A program made the position numbers and the translations under genes. DNA of 47,870 nt from a virus. This document shows, one piece after another, positions 576 through 11,603 of the stretch (position 1 is its first letter; every line of letters begins with the position of its first letter). Below the pieces are notes generated by a model. That model searched no databases and was not told the origin of the DNA. It saw only the letters and a program-made list of their open reading frames with translations. The stretch spans positions 1 to 47,870 of IMG/VR virus record IMGVR_UViG_3300032285_004437; one strand, given 5' to 3'.

Positions 576-1361
576 TTACTCTTCTTTATTTACATTAATT
601 TCCCATCCGGTAACTGTATTTTCTTTCACTCTTTGCCGAGTAACATTAAAAAATCTAGAACACTGAGAGATGTTATTAAAAAAGATAACTTCCTTTGTTT
701 CTATATTTTCTGCATTCACAGTTTTTGAATTTTTTTGTTTTTTATTTATATTACTATTTCTTAATTTTTCCTTTATTTCATCAGTATATGTTCTATTCTC
801 TAGTCCCTTGGATATCTTCTTTTTATGCTCTTCCGTTAATTTTTTTCCAGTATGTGCTTTAGATAATCTTTCTTTAGTTATATCGGATAGCTTAATACCT
901 TTTCTTTTTTCTGATGCTTTTTTTCTTCTCTCCTCCGGCCACATCTTATTTTCAATTCCCTCTTTTCCCCTGTTAGCCTCTGAAATCTTTTTTTTATGCT
1001 CCTCTGTTATTTTTAACCCGTATCTAAATGCTTTTTCACCAACATATTTCCCTTTCAGTGTGTTTGATATTTTTTTTGAGATCTCCGGGCTCGTCATAAA
1101 AAGAGATCCACCAGGGGCTAGATTATATCCTACACTTGGGTTCCTTGAATTTAGCTCCTTTATCCAAAAAATTTCTCTTTCATTCAGTTCATTATGATCT
1201 TTGCAGTATTCTATTATTTCTTTCTTAAAATTATCTATCCCCAATTCAGATATAGCTTTTTTTATTAAAATGCCACTTCCATAATAACTAGGGTTATAAT
1301 TTTTCTCCTGTCCTATATAGATCAAGCCGTTAATTATATTTGTTATTTTGTAAATGTTCAT
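576..1361 (-). CDS. GIY-YIG homing endonuclease with NUMOD-type DNA-binding repeats
   Basis: This 261-aa protein starts with a GIY-YIG nuclease core: a Y at residue 4 in the GIY position, LIYIG at 13-17, a YGSG turn, and the conserved ERE region near 61-63 that should carry the catalytic glutamate. GYNLAPGG follows at about 78-85. The middle holds several lysine-rich repeats of the SEEHKKKIS/GKK kind, typical of NUMOD3 modules. The C-terminal 50 residues resemble a NUMOD1 helix-turn-helix. Such enzymes cut intron- or gene-free alleles and spread themselves; T4 Seg and Mob enzymes are free-standing relatives. It sits between the uvsY-like gene (13-nt gap) and uvsW (1-nt gap) without interrupting either, so it is best read as a free-standing mobile gene. 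Confidence 0.88.
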   Translation of the reverse strand: MNIYKITNIINGLIYIGQEKNYNPSYYGSGILIKKAISELGIDNFKKEIIEYCKDHNELNEREIFWIKELNSRNPSVGYNLAPGGSLFMTSPEISKKISNTLKGKYVGEKAFRYGLKITEEHKKKISEANRGKEGIENKMWPEERRKKASEKRKGIKLSDITKERLSKAHTGKKLTEEHKKKISKGLENRTYTDEIKEKLRNSNINKKQKNSKTVNAENIETKEVIFFNNISQCSRFFNVTRQRVKENTVTGWEINVNKEE

Positions 1362-5683: not shown

Positions 5684-6232
5684 TTATTTGGCCTCTAGAA
5701 GTATATCAATATAGTTACATTTAAATCCCAGGCTAAAAGCTGAAAATTGGGGATTATTTGACGTGTAATTGAGCTCAAAAGTGGTCATCGATGTGAATAG
5801 CACCTCCTGAAAAGTTACAGAGATCACCACATTGCCCTCATTATCAAGTATTCTTAGGGGTAAATTCTGGATGTGAACTTGTGGATTTTCAAAATTTAAA
5901 AAATCAAGAACTGTGTCTAACATCACAAAATAGTTCATGAATCCATCAGTTTGTCTGAAGTTCATGGTGATGTCCTTTGAAAAAAGATCCTGAACTGGGG
6001 TAGCACTTTTATATGAGATCTTTTTTCCTAGATTTCTTACCTGATCTACAGAGTCTATGGTTAGACCCGGCATTGAGATAGATTGTATAGTACTATTCAC
6101 ATACTGCTGCACAGTATCGAAGGGTATAGGCTGCTTTTTAATGTACTTCTCGTATTTAGAGGTCACCCTCTCACTAAAGAATCCCTTAGGGAAATTAAAA
6201 TAAAAGCTATTCGATTTAGGATTAATTAACAT
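5684..6232 (-). CDS. Tail-tube-like structural protein (gp19/gp54-type fold suspected)
   Basis: A 182-aa protein. After an N-terminal extension it has a segment SISMPGLTIDSV, resembling the strand-plus-LPG loop of phage tube proteins. The second half has ILDNEGNVV, then an EVLFTSMTTFELNYTSNNPQFSAFSLGFKCNYIDI-like ending (given here as its pattern: F.EV.FTS..  F.L.Y.S.NPQF..F.L.F....). T4 gp19 ends with a similar plan (G..P..V..L.LDW.SNNEIQTF.V.L..DY). This suggests a tail-tube or baseplate tube-initiator protein. It follows the 899-aa Hint-domain virion gene by 17 bases and is the last gene of that unit. The fold call is by pattern only; a different small baseplate protein is possible. Confidence 0.5.
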   Translation of the reverse strand: MLINPKSNSFYFNFPKGFFSERVTSKYEKYIKKQPIPFDTVQQYVNSTIQSISMPGLTIDSVDQVRNLGKKISYKSATPVQDLFSKDITMNFRQTDGFMNYFVMLDTVLDFLNFENPQVHIQNLPLRILDNEGNVVISVTFQEVLFTSMTTFELNYTSNNPQFSAFSLGFKCNYIDILLEAK

Positions 6233-6249: not shown

Positions 6250-6657
6250 TTATCTATTAAACAGAAGCTTATTGTGTGATATTATGCCTTCTAAAACATA
6301 GGTGTGGGCATCCTCAACCTCGAGTTTAATAACGTCCTTTCTTCCTATGCTCTCTTTGCTAAGAAGCTGAGCTAATCCATCTAAAGTCTTTATCTCACTT
6401 CCAATTTCAAGATCAGATATAGAGATGTATTCGTTATTAGAGGTTAAGAACTTGTGAGAATCTGAGATTGTGACTGTTTTATCCCCTATTTTAACCGAAA
6501 GAACCTGTTGAATCATTTTCTCTGCATGGGAAATCTTATACAATCCCCATTCTCCAGTTTTTTCATGCGTTGTGTAAATCTCTATCCCAACGGTTATATC
6601 CCCTGCTTTGATCCAGTTATTATCTCCAAGAAGAATATTCATATCGGGCGTAGGACA
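6250..6657 (-). other. Hint/BIL-type domain at the C-terminus of the 899-aa virion protein
   Basis: Residues 765-899. Cys765 opens the domain; the block-B histidine lies in ISDSHKF; the terminal pair is His892-Asn893, then Lys. These residues support an N-to-S acyl shift at Cys765 and Asn cyclisation at the end. The +1 residue is Lys, so ordinary splicing with a +1 nucleophile is not expected; cleavage or transfer of the upstream thioester to another nucleophile is the known alternative for such domains. Confidence 0.78.
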
Positions 6658-8949
6658 TCCAGACCCATATTTATCTTTATTAATTCCCAAAAATCCAAAT
6701 ACACCATGTGCGGTAAGTATTCCTCTAGCAGCCAAAGCAAATTCAGCTGCGGTTAATCCTGGATATTGTAAGTAACCGGGTCTACCTGGAAGTAAGAAAT
6801 AGTTTCTTATCTTATCATCAGTCCAGCCTTGATCTTTTAGTCCTCTAATCTGAGCTGCCAATGCGCTAATCATTGCAGATCCAGTCAAGACGCTAGTTCT
6901 AGGATTGAATCTCGGTCTCGTAGAACCTGTTGGACCGATAACTATAGGTTTAACACCTTTAATTATAGGCTTAGGAGCTATTATCTCTATAGGCTGTGGA
7001 GCTGATGTTGCACCTGTTGCCCCCACAGCTCCAGCTGGTCCTGTTGGTGCTATAGGTGCTACGATCTCTACCTCTCCCTCTTTCTTCCAATATCCCCAAT
7101 ACATCACACTAGCAGGAAGACTAGCGGTTGTGGATACTGATGCAGCTGCAGTGTCTGTGGTTTTAATAAAAGTCGAAAGCATATCTGCTGATCTCTGATC
7201 ATTACCTGATATTGTGGTTGCTCCCTGTGCAACTCCGCTGAGATTAGAGCCAGTAGCTCCGGGAGTTAAATTCCCACCATTGACAATAAAGAACCTTCTA
7301 TCAGTAAACGCAAGTACCTTAGATGAAACAGACTCGTCAACTTTAAAAGCAAGCTCCCCACCAGCGGGTCTAGCAATAGTATTATCTAGAAGGGCTGGCA
7401 CATACGTTTTTTTACCTTGCTGGTCAACAAAAACCATATTATAATTACCAGAGCTACTGAGATCTATCGCTACTGGATTACCCTCTGTTCCTGCTTTTAA
7501 GAATTGAAATTTATAGTAGTTGTCAAATGGGGAAATGTTGATAGTTAGATTCCCGCTTCCAAAGGCTGTAGTCTGAGCTTGTCCGCTGTTTTCAGTTAGA
7601 GTTCCAGTGTGCATAGAAAGATTCTTAAGCGTAGCTGTAACATTATATTGCTGAATGAAAACATTGGTAAACTTATAAATGATCTTAGGAGCTGGTGCTA
7701 CAAATCCTCCCAGCTTAATCTGAGGTTGATTGTAAACGCGATTGTATATTTTTTGAACCTGCGGGAAATCACTAAGTTTAATAGGAGTTATATTCATACC
7801 CCATTTAGCTGGATTATTAGAAGAGTATGTAGCAATTCTGATAACGCTAGATTGATCTTTACTATTGATCAATGACATGGTGTATCTTAGAAAAAAACTA
7901 GATGAATAAGCTGCATTTCTCACTATTGGTCTATAATAGTTTGGGGTATCGTATGCAGTTGTTTGGATTGATTGGAATTGTGAGGTCTCTATAATAGCTG
8001 CACCAATCTGTTCTAGAACTTCTATTTTGTGATTTATATAGTAGCTGTTTCCTAAAGAATTTTGGAAGAGAATAAAATCCTCAATAAATCCCTCGTTATC
8101 GGTTGCAAAGTATTCAAAGAATTGACCTTTATCAGATTCTTGAATATGGGCTCCTATATTGCCAAATGGATCTTCCTCCTCTAGGGAGAGAAGTCCTATT
8201 CTAGCAGTGTCATATCTTGGATACCCATCATAATCACCGGTGCTCTGTATCTGCCAAACCGAAACCCTCATTGGAGCTCCGTAATAAAAGCCATATCCAC
8301 TAGCACTTAGCAATCCACCTAAAGAATCAGGTTGATAGTTTGGAGGGGTTGCTATATACTTATCATTCATGTCTTTGAGACTAGGGATCTTGATCTCAAA
8401 GTATTTGTCATAAATGTTTGCACCAATAGTTACCGGAGAAGGATTTAGTGTGTACTTTTGCTCAGTTCCTTTCTTAAGTATGATCTGAGATGCTGTCACA
8501 TACTTAGAGTTTGAATCCTGAAAATCTATACCTAGAATAATTCCATCAATGTTCTGTAAATTGTAACCAGCTCTAACGTGATACCTAACAGTGTCATAAA
8601 CCACACTAAGATTGTAAGGAAATGTTACAGGAAGATTCACACTGCTAGTTAGCTTATCAGAGTAATCATTAAAGGGAATAATAAAATTAGAACTTAAAGA
8701 AACAAATGAGTTTTCAGCAATTCTAACCACACTATCTATTACTGTGTTCTGAGTGGTGCTATAATTTACATCTGGATTGAAGATCTGTACAGAGTTATCC
8801 ATATAGCCATTCACCAGCTTATCGAACCCAACTTTAGTAGCTCCAGTGTTGGTGAAGTGAGTTTCTGGGTTAGGCTGATCTGCGTACATGTATTCCATTA
8901 GGAGATACGGGGTAAGCTGAACATATTTTGATGTGGTGGTAAATGCCAT
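6250..8949 (-). CDS. Large virion protein (899 aa) ending in a Hint (intein-like) domain
   Basis: Residues 1-760 look like a beta-rich phage structural protein: aromatic-rich N-terminus (YVQLTPYLLMEYMYADQP), many Ser/Thr/Asn-rich strands, and a short collagen-like stretch (TGPAGAVGATGA) near residue 650. I do not recognise its exact role; a tail or fibre protein is likely. The last ~135 residues form a Hint domain: nucleophile C765 in GCPTPDMNILL, a block-B histidine in VTISDSHKF, and a block-G ending GIISHN (H892-N893) followed by only six residues, KLLFNR. There is no endonuclease insert and no Cys/Ser/Thr after HN, so this resembles a bacterial intein-like (BIL) domain rather than a splicing intein. 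It precedes the tube-like gene and follows a small coiled-coil gene. Confidence 0.8.
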   Translation of the reverse strand: MAFTTTSKYVQLTPYLLMEYMYADQPNPETHFTNTGATKVGFDKLVNGYMDNSVQIFNPDVNYSTTQNTVIDSVVRIAENSFVSLSSNFIIPFNDYSDKLTSSVNLPVTFPYNLSVVYDTVRYHVRAGYNLQNIDGIILGIDFQDSNSKYVTASQIILKKGTEQKYTLNPSPVTIGANIYDKYFEIKIPSLKDMNDKYIATPPNYQPDSLGGLLSASGYGFYYGAPMRVSVWQIQSTGDYDGYPRYDTARIGLLSLEEEDPFGNIGAHIQESDKGQFFEYFATDNEGFIEDFILFQNSLGNSYYINHKIEVLEQIGAAIIETSQFQSIQTTAYDTPNYYRPIVRNAAYSSSFFLRYTMSLINSKDQSSVIRIATYSSNNPAKWGMNITPIKLSDFPQVQKIYNRVYNQPQIKLGGFVAPAPKIIYKFTNVFIQQYNVTATLKNLSMHTGTLTENSGQAQTTAFGSGNLTINISPFDNYYKFQFLKAGTEGNPVAIDLSSSGNYNMVFVDQQGKKTYVPALLDNTIARPAGGELAFKVDESVSSKVLAFTDRRFFIVNGGNLTPGATGSNLSGVAQGATTISGNDQRSADMLSTFIKTTDTAAASVSTTASLPASVMYWGYWKKEGEVEIVAPIAPTGPAGAVGATGATSAPQPIEIIAPKPIIKGVKPIVIGPTGSTRPRFNPRTSVLTGSAMISALAAQIRGLKDQGWTDDKIRNYFLLPGRPGYLQYPGLTAAEFALAARGILTAHGVFGFLGINKDKYGSGCPTPDMNILLGDNNWIKAGDITVGIEIYTTHEKTGEWGLYKISHAEKMIQQVLSVKIGDKTVTISDSHKFLTSNNEYISISDLEIGSEIKTLDGLAQLLSKESIGRKDVIKLEVEDAHTYVLEGIISHNKLLFNR

Positions 8950-8978: not shown

Positions 8979-9251
8979 TTATAGATTAACCTCTTTCTCA
9001 TCTACGGATGACTCGCATTCCCAGGAGAGAGTCATAGGATTCAATTTACCAGGTCCGTATTTTTTAATCATCTTGCTCATGAATTTCTCCTCTTCCGCTC
9101 TGCAGCTCTCAAGCTCAGAGATAAGACTTGAAGAAGATTCTTCTAGATTTTTTATCTCCTTCTCAACTTTAACTATTTCTCCGTGTATAGCTATGTAGCT
9201 TCTAGAAAAATTTAAAACCGTTTCCTTCTCTTTGCTGCTTATTTGTTTCAT
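8979..9251 (-). CDS. Small coiled-coil protein, unknown function
   Basis: A 90-aa protein whose residues about 20-60 form a strong heptad-like, Glu/Lys/Leu-rich helix (VKVEKEIKNLEESSSSLISELESC), so it is probably a coiled coil. The end is short and acidic. It sits between the two Hint-domain virion genes (15-nt and 29-nt gaps), in the same unit. A role as a fibre assembly chaperone or a small structural clamp is possible from context only; no family is recognised. Confidence 0.65.
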   Translation of the reverse strand: MKQISSKEKETVLNFSRSYIAIHGEIVKVEKEIKNLEESSSSLISELESCRAEEEKFMSKMIKKYGPGKLNPMTLSWECESSVDEKEVNL

Positions 9252-9266
9252 AAAATAAATTTTATA

Positions 9267-9740
9267 TTAAATTTCACATTGTAAGGTAGCATAAACATTA
9301 TGGGATAAAACACCGTTTGCATAATAGTTCATAGCTTCCTCATTAACCGTTGAAAACGTATATGTTACTGTCTCTATTTCCATCCTGATTATGTCTTCAA
9401 CTACTAAACCCTTCTTATCGGAAGTTAAGAAAACGTCTCCTATCTCAATAACTTCCGCATCTAAATCGTAAACCATTTTAGTCATCGCTGGGTCAGAAGA
9501 AGTCCATCCTTTATTTATCACATATAAAGGATGCTCAACTGTTGCCTTTAAAGATGTTCCATCACTAAGCTTATATTCATATATATCGCTTCTGATAGGG
9601 GATAGAATCTTCCTAACACCATTAGCAATATTCTCTCCAGTCTCAAAATCAAAAGAAAGAACCAGGTCTCCTACTTTAACATCTTCTATAAGCTTATATG
9701 TCATATCCGCCATAGTAATTAAAGTTCCTGGAGCAAAACA
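9267..9740 (-). other. Canonical Hint/BIL-type domain at the C-terminus of the 778-aa fibre protein
   Basis: Residues 622-769 plus a nine-residue tail. Every Hint block is readable: CFAPGTLI (block A), TVEHPLYV (block B with the TxxH motif) and YANGVLSHN (block G). It follows a Pro/Gly linker and a Cys-Cys pair, where C622 is the expected nucleophile. Length and lack of an insert fit a mini-intein or BIL domain. Confidence 0.88.
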
Positions 9741-11603
9741 GCAGAATGTAATTGTTCCTCCTCCTCCACCAGGCGAAGGTGGCGGTGGTGGGAAATTCGG
9801 ATTAGGAGGTGGTGGTGGAGGTGGTGGAGGTGAACTAACAACCGGCGTAGTAGTCCCGTATCGATTAGTGATATTTATAAATCCAGCACTTCCAGTACAA
9901 GTCTTCCAAAAAATCTTAGGGTTACCGTTAGTTGAACTTGTACCATATGACCAGAAAAGATCAACATAGCTGCATCCATAAAATTGGGTTTGCGTATCTC
10001 TATTCTGAGGAAATTTCATATAATACCTAGTATTAATTGATTGAACCCCTGATGTAAAATTCAAATAATCCCACACTAGGCCAATTATTTTAATCTGAGC
10101 AGTAGCTTTGTTTGAGCTTAGGTCATTCGCAAATATTCTATAGTGAGTAGCGCCAGATCTAGTTGGACTTCCTGCAGCAAATTGATCGTCGAAAAAATTA
10201 GGATCTTGGTTGGTGTAATACAATGGACTAACAGGAGCTGTGGTAGTTGGAACGTAAAGATAGAAAGACCCGGTAGTACCAACCCCTGGCCAAGCTGGAG
10301 TTACCATTATAAAATTAGAATCCCAAAAACTTAATTGGTTACTGAGATTAATTACATTAGAGAGTAGTGTATTACCTCTTCCTATACCTACAGTTCCATA
10401 CTGATAACATGAAGTTAATTGGGGAGCACTTGAAATTCTAATCTCTTTTAGACCTCTTACATTATATAGATAAGGACCAGCAGTTCCCCCTGTTGTAAAT
10501 CCTCCAGTTGACCCAAATATTGTCTGTAAGTATGACCCACTTCCAAAAGCACCTTTAGGTCTAGAAGAAAATATTTGGGCACCATTAGAATCGATAAATT
10601 CAAAAGGATTATTCACACCTTCCGTAACATTCACATTAAGGCCGTATGAGAATGGAGCTCCAGGATTAGATAAGGTCTTGCTAGTATTAAAAGTAATCGT
10701 ATTAGATTCACCTGAAATTATCTTCGTGGGTTCTTTGGCCCAATAATATGAGGGATTAACAACTATATTATTAGTTGTCAAAGAAAAATAAGATCCAGTT
10801 CCTATGGTTGTATTTGAATTAAAATAAAAATCAGAAGTGTGTTTGATAGAAATTCCACTACCTGCAGTAATAGACATTAAATTACCGGTGAGAAGAGTTC
10901 TTGCTGATGATGTATTAACACTTAGTCCCAAAAGTGAATTAATAGTTAAAGGAGCCGATGAGTTAAATCTTAAAGCAACTGAGCTTCCAGTAGACTTCCA
11001 ATAGAAGGAAGGAACTGATGAAGTAACCGATGTTGATTTAATAAAAGAAAATACTGGATTTAAAATTTGATCCTCCGTTGATATTAAAAGTTTAGATCTA
11101 TTAGGATTTGAATTTGTTGAATTCAGTGTTTTATCACTTATAACTAGACTTGTATCTAATTCGTTATAAGGGTTTAATATACCACTGTTATTAAATGCAA
11201 TTGCAAATTTATCAGTTACCCCAGCAGGTCCAGAAATCCCTGAATATGATTTGAAATAATCAGATGAGAAAAGGCTGTATCCAGTATTTGTCCAAGTACC
11301 GGTTGGTCCTAAAATTTTAACATCGCTGGCAGGTGTAGATTCATCAACCCATAAATCGCCTTGAAGAGAAATTGAAGCTGATGGTTGGGTTAACTGATTA
11401 AACCAAAGGGAAGCTCTAGCTCCCGCACCCCCGCTCAATCCTCTTTTTCCCGCTGGACCTGGAAATCCAGTAGGTCCCTTTGCCCCTATGTGACCGTTCG
11501 GCCCAACAGCAAAAGAAAGAATCTGATCAAAATTATAATTGATCTTTTTATCTATCTCTTTTTTAGAGTCTCCCTGGAAAATATATTTTGTATTAAAGTG
11601 CAT
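9267..11603 (-). CDS. Collagen-like fibre protein (778 aa) ending in a Hint domain
   Basis: The N-terminus follows the plan shared by the next two genes: a short strand, GDSKKEIDKKINYNFDQI, then Gly-X-Y triplets (GPNGHIGAKGPTGFPGPAG..) leading to a LWF block. The middle is a long Ser/Thr/Gly-rich beta region typical of phage fibres. Near residues 585-616 there is a Pro-rich/Gly-rich linker (nine and five prolines, then five glycines). The last 157 residues are a canonical Hint domain: C622 in CFAPGTLI, KLIEDVKVGDLVLSFD, the block-B TVEHPLYV, and NYYANGVLSHN (H768-N769), followed by VYATLQCEI. The +1 residue is Val, so this is BIL-like. The 582- and 549-aa paralogues lack the Hint domain. It is probably a late virion gene read from the GATATATA element at 13383-13390. 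Confidence 0.85.
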   Translation of the reverse strand: MHFNTKYIFQGDSKKEIDKKINYNFDQILSFAVGPNGHIGAKGPTGFPGPAGKRGLSGGAGARASLWFNQLTQPSASISLQGDLWVDESTPASDVKILGPTGTWTNTGYSLFSSDYFKSYSGISGPAGVTDKFAIAFNNSGILNPYNELDTSLVISDKTLNSTNSNPNRSKLLISTEDQILNPVFSFIKSTSVTSSVPSFYWKSTGSSVALRFNSSAPLTINSLLGLSVNTSSARTLLTGNLMSITAGSGISIKHTSDFYFNSNTTIGTGSYFSLTTNNIVVNPSYYWAKEPTKIISGESNTITFNTSKTLSNPGAPFSYGLNVNVTEGVNNPFEFIDSNGAQIFSSRPKGAFGSGSYLQTIFGSTGGFTTGGTAGPYLYNVRGLKEIRISSAPQLTSCYQYGTVGIGRGNTLLSNVINLSNQLSFWDSNFIMVTPAWPGVGTTGSFYLYVPTTTAPVSPLYYTNQDPNFFDDQFAAGSPTRSGATHYRIFANDLSSNKATAQIKIIGLVWDYLNFTSGVQSINTRYYMKFPQNRDTQTQFYGCSYVDLFWSYGTSSTNGNPKIFWKTCTGSAGFINITNRYGTTTPVVSSPPPPPPPPPNPNFPPPPPSPGGGGGTITFCCFAPGTLITMADMTYKLIEDVKVGDLVLSFDFETGENIANGVRKILSPIRSDIYEYKLSDGTSLKATVEHPLYVINKGWTSSDPAMTKMVYDLDAEVIEIGDVFLTSDKKGLVVEDIIRMEIETVTYTFSTVNEEAMNYYANGVLSHNVYATLQCEI

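Follow-up and report, generated by a model that had tools for sequence, protein, structure and literature searches.

A BIL type A-like Hint domain at the C-terminus of a putative jumbo-phage tail protein: a candidate self-removing and exchangeable module

Introduction

Hint and BIL domains are already known kinds of domain. In polymorphic toxins a toxin follows the PT-HINT domain, and phage fibres and spikes have a C-terminal self-removing part of another sort in the Peptidase_S74-type intramolecular chaperones of tail spikes. By published definition, type A BILs end in a terminal His-Asn without Cys, Ser or Thr at the +1 position (PMC4031507, PMC7765530). They are described as having no +1 nucleophile and as joining their flanks, if at all, via an amine set free on the C-terminal fragment (PMC4031507). 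Such a mechanism needs no lysine. For BIL2 of Tetrahymena, an isopeptide bond to a lysine side chain is reported (PMC8616854). Phage inteins have already been published in terminases and ribonucleotide reductases (PMC3556154, PMC5259590). Among the titles and abstract openings listed by searches of open-access literature, none described exchangeable, Lys-flanked Hint cassettes on the tail proteins of phages.

The viral record analysed here comprises 47,870 bases (the whole stretch is called the window), and the feature under study is the C-terminal end of an 899-aa ORF (6250-8949, minus strand). An earlier sequence-only reading had placed a Hint domain at this end, with C765, the SDSH motif, H892-N893 and a KLLFNR tail, and had proposed a joint role with a second Hint domain on a neighbouring gene. 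Sequence, profile and fold comparisons confirmed the domain, which by sequence is a catalytically complete, BIL type A-like Hint.

Results

The features on which the analysis draws are the following ("body" denotes the 899-aa protein).

5684-6232: tail-tube-like gene, 182 aa, directly downstream of the body gene (phrog_45 tail tube, E 1.7e-6)
6250-8949, minus strand: 899-aa body that hosts the Hint domain, putative tail/baseplate protein of jumbo myophages (ORF list, neighbour gene, BFVD matches)
7270-8949, minus strand: conserved N-terminal part of the body, residues 1-560, common to Hint-bearing and Hint-less relatives (alignment, model)
6697-6882, minus strand: small helical domain of the body, residues 690-751, with a conserved GIL motif (AlphaFold2 model, relatives' ends)
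6658-6693, minus strand: linker before Cys1, residues 753-764, mostly low pLDDT, G-S-G at its end
6253-6657, minus strand: Hint domain (residues 765-893) and six-residue tail (alignment, profile, fold)
6655-6657, minus strand: C765, the Hint Cys1 and expected thioester nucleophile (invariant 24/24)
6454-6465, minus strand: block B S829-x-x-H832 (SDSH; both residues invariant 24/24)
6304-6306, minus strand: block F His882 (AHTY; invariant 24/24)
6271-6276, minus strand: block G H892-N893, expected site of Asn cyclisation (invariant 24/24)
6268-6270, minus strand: K894, the +1 Lys (Lys at +1/+2 in 76/85 domains)
6253-6270, minus strand: C-terminal tail K-L-L-F-N-R, then the stop codon (ORF translation, alignment)
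8979-9251, minus strand: 90-aa ORF, the sole ORF separating the two Hint genes
9267-11603, minus strand: 778-aa collagen-like fibre protein with the other Hint lineage at its C-terminus
9270-9740, minus strand: fibre Hint domain (C622) and tail, with Met for the block F His and no Lys after HN

The BFVD matches of the body were uncharacterised myophage proteins only (E 4e-46 to 6e-20), among them proteins of Tenacibaculum phages pT24 and PTm1. Comparison with the PDB gave no solved structure that convincingly matched residues 1-560, and a tail-sheath assignment, guessed from the place before the tube-like gene, likewise found no clear PDB match over these residues. Gene order and the types of protein that carry related modules nevertheless suggest that the body is a tail/baseplate or other virion protein. 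A 1245-aa protein of the window belongs to the phrog_29329 family, and its matches, mostly hypothetical or unannotated, lie in phages of Tenacibaculum, Chryseobacterium, Sphingomonas, Flavobacterium and Prevotella (Lak). Elsewhere in the window, the ORF at 576-1361 (minus strand) encodes a putative GIY-YIG homing endonuclease with NUMOD-like repeats.

A single-sequence Pfam scan of the body gave a weak signal, with PT-HINT as the best family at an E-value of 0.0046, below its cut-off. A profile built from 24 relatives matched mini-inteins (7cfv, 2.7e-9), BIL4 of C. thermocellum (2lwy, 2.9e-8) and gp41-1 (4.2e-8). AlphaFold2 returned a confident, mostly beta Hint domain, with pLDDT values of ~74-93 in blocks of ten residues that fall at the C-terminal tail; the linker before Cys1 and the tail were loose. 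The predicted fold aligned with inteins, BIL2, BIL4 and hedgehog at Z 16-19. By Foldseek the best E-value was that of BIL2 (6y75, 2e-9), while VIA-align tied inteins with BIL2. After proper alignment the catalytic residues, whose lack would have counted against the sequence-only reading, are present, and C1, S65, H68, H118, H128 and N129 (Hint numbering) are invariant in 24/24 relatives.

These features place the domain among the known classes as follows. It has the Hint fold, Cys1 and the block B [TS]xxH (24/24) of the Hint superfamily. Inteins have Cys, Ser or Thr at +1, where the window has K894 and only 1/67 representatives has such a residue; they also interrupt a conserved protein and are followed by a functional C-extein, where the window has a six-residue tail only. 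The terminal His-Asn without a +1 Cys, Ser or Thr is that of BIL type A. Block G HN is present, unlike in BIL type B, which has no intein-like block G. In place of the ubiquitin-like flanks of the BUBL type, the domain has a phage tail-region protein on one side and six residues on the other, and the stop codon lies six codons past HN, where a PT-HINT of polymorphic toxins would be followed by a toxin.

With type A BIL domains such as BIL4 of C. thermocellum (2lwy), the phage modules have in common the Hint fold, Cys1, the terminal His-Asn, the lack of a +1 Cys/Ser/Thr and a patchy distribution; they differ in their tail-protein hosts, in a location that is often the extreme C-terminus, in the Lys at +1/+2 and in the poly-Gly stretch that often precedes them. 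Among solved structures, BIL2 from the Tetrahymena BUBL (6y75, 6tmm) is closest in sequence to the fibre-type domains (E 2.2e-25), yet it is flanked by ubiquitin-like domains in a ciliate, and its solved chain has M-Q, not Lys, after the (mutated) Asn. By profile the fibre-type domains are much nearer to BIL2 than to the bacterial BIL4 (3.5e-15), a closeness that prompts the question whether such domains have passed between phages or bacteria and ciliates. Mini-inteins (gp41-1, DnaB, DnaX) share the fold and the catalytic blocks but are internal with Cys/Ser/Thr at +1, which 1/67 of the phage representatives has. The PT-HINT of polymorphic toxins is also an autoprocessing Hint near the C-terminus, with a toxin after it in place of the six residues of the window. 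Peptidase_S74 has an unrelated fold and chemistry and is an analogy only.

Residues after the His-Asn were compared in two sets. From 140 distinct Hint-bearing proteins, 33 were dropped (partial, without Cys1 or without HN), and the 107 kept were reduced to 67 representatives at 70% identity; in parallel, 101 distinct domains of at most 190 aa gave 85 after a 90% identity filter. Inclusion required a Cys near the start and an HN near the end, so that the 85/85 scores for both hold by construction, while the motifs used for fetching exclude the residues after HN. Among the 67 representatives, Lys was found at +1/+2 in 59 and at +3/+4 in 7, and Cys/Ser/Thr at +1 in 1. Of the 85 domains, 76 had Lys at +1/+2 (48 at +1, 28 at +2), against a background at +3 to +12 of 16/672 (2.4% per position). 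The remaining 9/85 comprised three with Arg at +1, four with Lys at +3/+4, one with Cys (intein-like) and the fibre domain of the window. This Lys and the block F His (74/85 domains) are conserved to a similar degree. Because the 85 rows share ancestry, a binomial figure would be unfair as a probability; the better argument is that the Lys register changes at least 11 times on the tree.

In a second sample from two further scans, whose members are less than 70% identical to each other and to the 85, Lys was at +1 in 13/19, Arg in 3 and other residues in 3, a share lower than in the first sample and far above background. Hint hits in bacterial genomes had mixed +1 residues, with Lys at +1/+2 in 14/58 (58 with HN of 66, a redundant set). 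An artefact at the DNA level or of gene ends was ruled out, since both Lys codons occur at +1 (AAA 28, AAG 20, in 8 different nine-base words) and Lys is retained in 24/29 domains followed by more than 60 residues. An N-degron was ruled out by reasoning: at +2, the Lys would not be exposed. On the other side of the domain, Gly fills at least two of the three residues before Cys1 in 34/85 domains, and the linker before Cys1 is often poly-Gly in relatives. The near-constant Lys after the Hint hints at an unusual lysine-based joining reaction.

The two Hint domains of the window share 25% identity (BLASTP E 0.002). Their profiles are clearly homologous by hhalign (98.9%), and they fall in opposite halves of the 85-row Hint tree, split at 100/95. 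A recent tandem duplication, which the sequence-only reading had thought unlikely, is ruled out by this identity and tree position; on the tree, the two are old, separate lineages. The window fibre domain has AMNYY in place of xHxYY, that is, Met at the block F His, and V-Y-A without Lys after HN, and it may be partly decayed or losing its C-terminal chemistry. The 899-aa domain is alone complete within the pair, because the fibre domain lacks both the block F His and the Lys. In two loci arranged like the window (L001 and L002), the fibre domains show Gln in place of the block F His.

Relatives of the body were collected from 60 viral loci (L numbers); residues 1 to ~745 are the common part, and only some carry a Hint. 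Apart from L001 and L002, five loci (L003, L004, L033, L049, L053) have same-type domains on both genes, their fibre-side domains being 48-55% identical to the window body domain; in L003, L004, L033 and L053 the domains of both genes lie in the same half of the Hint tree. Others have a Hint on the fibre only (L015-L021, L032, L034, L051), the other Hint type on the body with a Hint-less fibre (L005, L006), or none on either gene (L007, L060 and others). Counted over 46 distinct bodies, both genes had a Hint in 7 cases, the fibre gene alone in 5, the body gene alone in 1 and neither gene in 14, the fibre gene being out of view for the other 19. Co-occurrence on body and fibre gave a raw Fisher p = 0.008, a figure behind which the tree has no more than 2 independent pairs. 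In a wider scan, which scored presence or absence only, 15 of 80 distinct bodies had a Hint and 65 did not, 7 of the 15 having come from Hint searches.

In the body tree, which has long branches flagged, the window groups with its nearest relative L005 (97/95), whose Hint sits at the same protein end but belongs to the opposite half of the Hint tree. The Hint switches between presence and absence at least 5 times on this tree; with its two types told apart, and its absence as the third state, there are at least 7 changes. Across the two halves of the Hint tree, body carriers number 7 and 2 and fibre carriers 7 and 4. The same-half domains on both genes and the other half's domain in L005 indicate that modules have been exchanged. 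To judge from these trees, the Hint module is an exchangeable C-terminal cassette that has been gained, lost and replaced on several tail proteins, and the swapping of distant lineages at a single protein end suggests that the chemistry is what is selected, not any one sequence.

These distributions bear on the joint role proposed earlier for two independently acquired domains. Separate lineages and the C-terminal recurrence on tail proteins were upheld; two independent acquisitions are an oversimplification, as both lineages occur on both genes. Of a shared role, removal of a C-terminal module fits, whereas a fixed pair does not, given single carriers. The idea that the two genes need each other, as an obligate pair, found no support in the relatives, many of which have one module or none.

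Where the end of the body could be read against the GIL motif pattern (4 Hint-bearing and 30 bare bodies matching it), the Hint-less bodies end 8-34 residues past the motif, and the Hint-bearing ones reach Cys1 after 17-21 residues. Since the module thus sits beyond an otherwise complete protein, its removal would leave about the bare form. The cultured Flavobacterium phage MaF61, which matches the body, had no Hint match, and among the matches examined no cultured phage had such a module on a tail protein; Hint matches in cultured phages lay in terminase, helicase, polymerase and other or hypothetical genes and in unannotated records. In two loci (L087 5635-6444, L092 5331-6065), a Hint-less body is accompanied by a small separate downstream ORF (269 and 244 aa, respectively) that ends in a Hint.

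Two profiles were run over 20 viral records (83-435 kb), in which full-length domains were found mainly in tail-region genes; beyond these, the profiles picked up incomplete domains, what seem to be split inteins, and Hint-like frames interrupted by stops. Neither profile matched the records of L008, L010, L023, L035, L048 and L060, which may be fragments. A PHROG scan of the N-terminal parts of 18 carriers matched 11 and left 7 unmatched. Hint modules were carried by tape measure proteins (L162, L170, L173, L179), a phrog_29329 protein of the family of the window's 1245-aa protein (L104), a phrog_2048 tail protein (L151) and phrog_358 proteins (L114, L184).

Three further arrangements were seen. 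Tape-measure or tape-measure-like proteins of L162, L168, L175 and L177 contain an internal Hint of the same kind, with a nearby Lys and several hundred residues after it. Arrays in which at least two Hint domains follow each other only a few residues apart (e.g. HN-K-F-C) occur in L132 (3485-6235), L133, L140-L143, L146, L153, L174, L176, L178 and L304 (ORF from 3618). Some array carriers presumably start with an ATP-grasp-like motif; in the three carriers scanned with Pfam (L150, L174 and L140), Hint and AXH were the only families found. Separate N- and C-terminal Hint halves lie on ORFs ~1 kb apart in L182 (5296-6291 and 7169-8044), L197, L198, L200 and record G008 (near 360719-361984). By analogy, such halves resemble naturally split inteins in an enzyme gene.

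Substitution rates were compared for close pairs of loci. For L003/L004, dN and dS were 0.057 and 0.968 for the body Hint, 0.172 and 1.496 for the fibre Hint, and 0.020 and 0.642 for the body outside the Hint. The fibre Hint of L017/L021 gave 0.052 and 0.412, and the Hint of L001/L002 0.012 and 0.046; the constraint was weaker for L071/L073 (0.068 and 0.228). The Hint is therefore under purifying selection, yet evolves faster than its host protein.

Discussion

We consider it rather probable that the domain is BIL-like and active, that it releases itself from a tail protein, and that it would serve as a removable C-terminal cap or timer in tail assembly. Given Hint chemistry, a thioester at C765 and Asn cyclisation at N893 are expected. 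Cys765 would form the thioester with the Gly-rich end of the body, cyclisation of Asn893 would let the Hint leave the precursor after translation, and the mature protein would end at the Gly-rich linker, either free or with the six-residue tail attached again via an amine of Lys894. We infer the cleavage, the order of these steps, and the roles of the lysine and of the module in assembly. Self-processing is favoured by the fold, the profile matches, the catalytic residues retained in 24/24 relatives, purifying selection, the position beyond a complete protein and the replacement at L005. Against such a role, the cultured MaF61 has no Hint match, the many relatives without the module mean that it is dispensable in those backgrounds, the loss of the block F His and Lys from the window fibre domain may indicate chemistry decaying on one gene, and a selfish or neutral hitch-hiking module would give partly the same pattern.

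That last possibility, a mini-intein-like module without endonuclease, spread by recombination of tail genes and tolerated through self-removal, is in our view quite unlikely. The patchy distribution and exchange between lineages would suit it, as would the loss of catalytic residues in some members and the size of the domains (~130-160 aa), too small to accommodate an endonuclease. In those carriers of the body and fibre kinds that were read, however, the module lies near the extreme C-terminus, where splicing would hardly be needed for tolerance, and both the purifying selection and a Lys kept across register shifts argue the other way. An inert structural or receptor-facing Hint derivative without chemistry would accord with the losses in the window fibre domain, but the invariance of the catalytic residues (24/24) makes it highly improbable. 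The module might instead be a cross-linking device that passes the Gly thioester to a Lys of another virion protein or subunit, forming a covalent tail joint as a ciliate BIL does with ubiquitin-like proteins. The Lys isopeptide bond reported for Tetrahymena BIL2 (PMC8616854) is in line with this, as are the best Foldseek E-value, the match of the fibre-type profile to BIL2 far above those to BIL4 and inteins, and the glycines before Cys1. The acceptor protein is putative, though, carriers occur singly, the short tail offers its own Lys as an acceptor in cis, and VIA-align puts inteins level with BIL2; we hold cross-linking to be unlikely.

Within the self-removal that we favour, the Lys could have a more specific part, a tentative idea that we regard as somewhat doubtful. 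The modules would then form a Lys-nucleophile Hint class on phage tail proteins, in which the amine of the +1/+2 Lys replaces Cys/Ser/Thr and attacks the Gly thioester to give an isopeptide, after which Asn cyclisation frees the Hint. A Lys side chain as acceptor at +1/+2 would explain both the conservation and the tolerance of a one-residue shift. The analogy with BIL2 is one of chemistry and not of motif, because BIL2 has no Lys at +1. The Lys signature makes a sharp, testable prediction, namely a splicing variant with an amine acceptor. Such a variant would bear on how BILs ligate without a +1 nucleophile, and could yield a new tool for making site-specific isopeptide bonds. For the phages, a Lys-nucleophile class, if true, would mean ATP-free welding or capping of virion proteins in the form of an interchangeable cassette. 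If the modules are active, the tails of some giant phages would be processed post-translationally by built-in chemistry that annotation misses.
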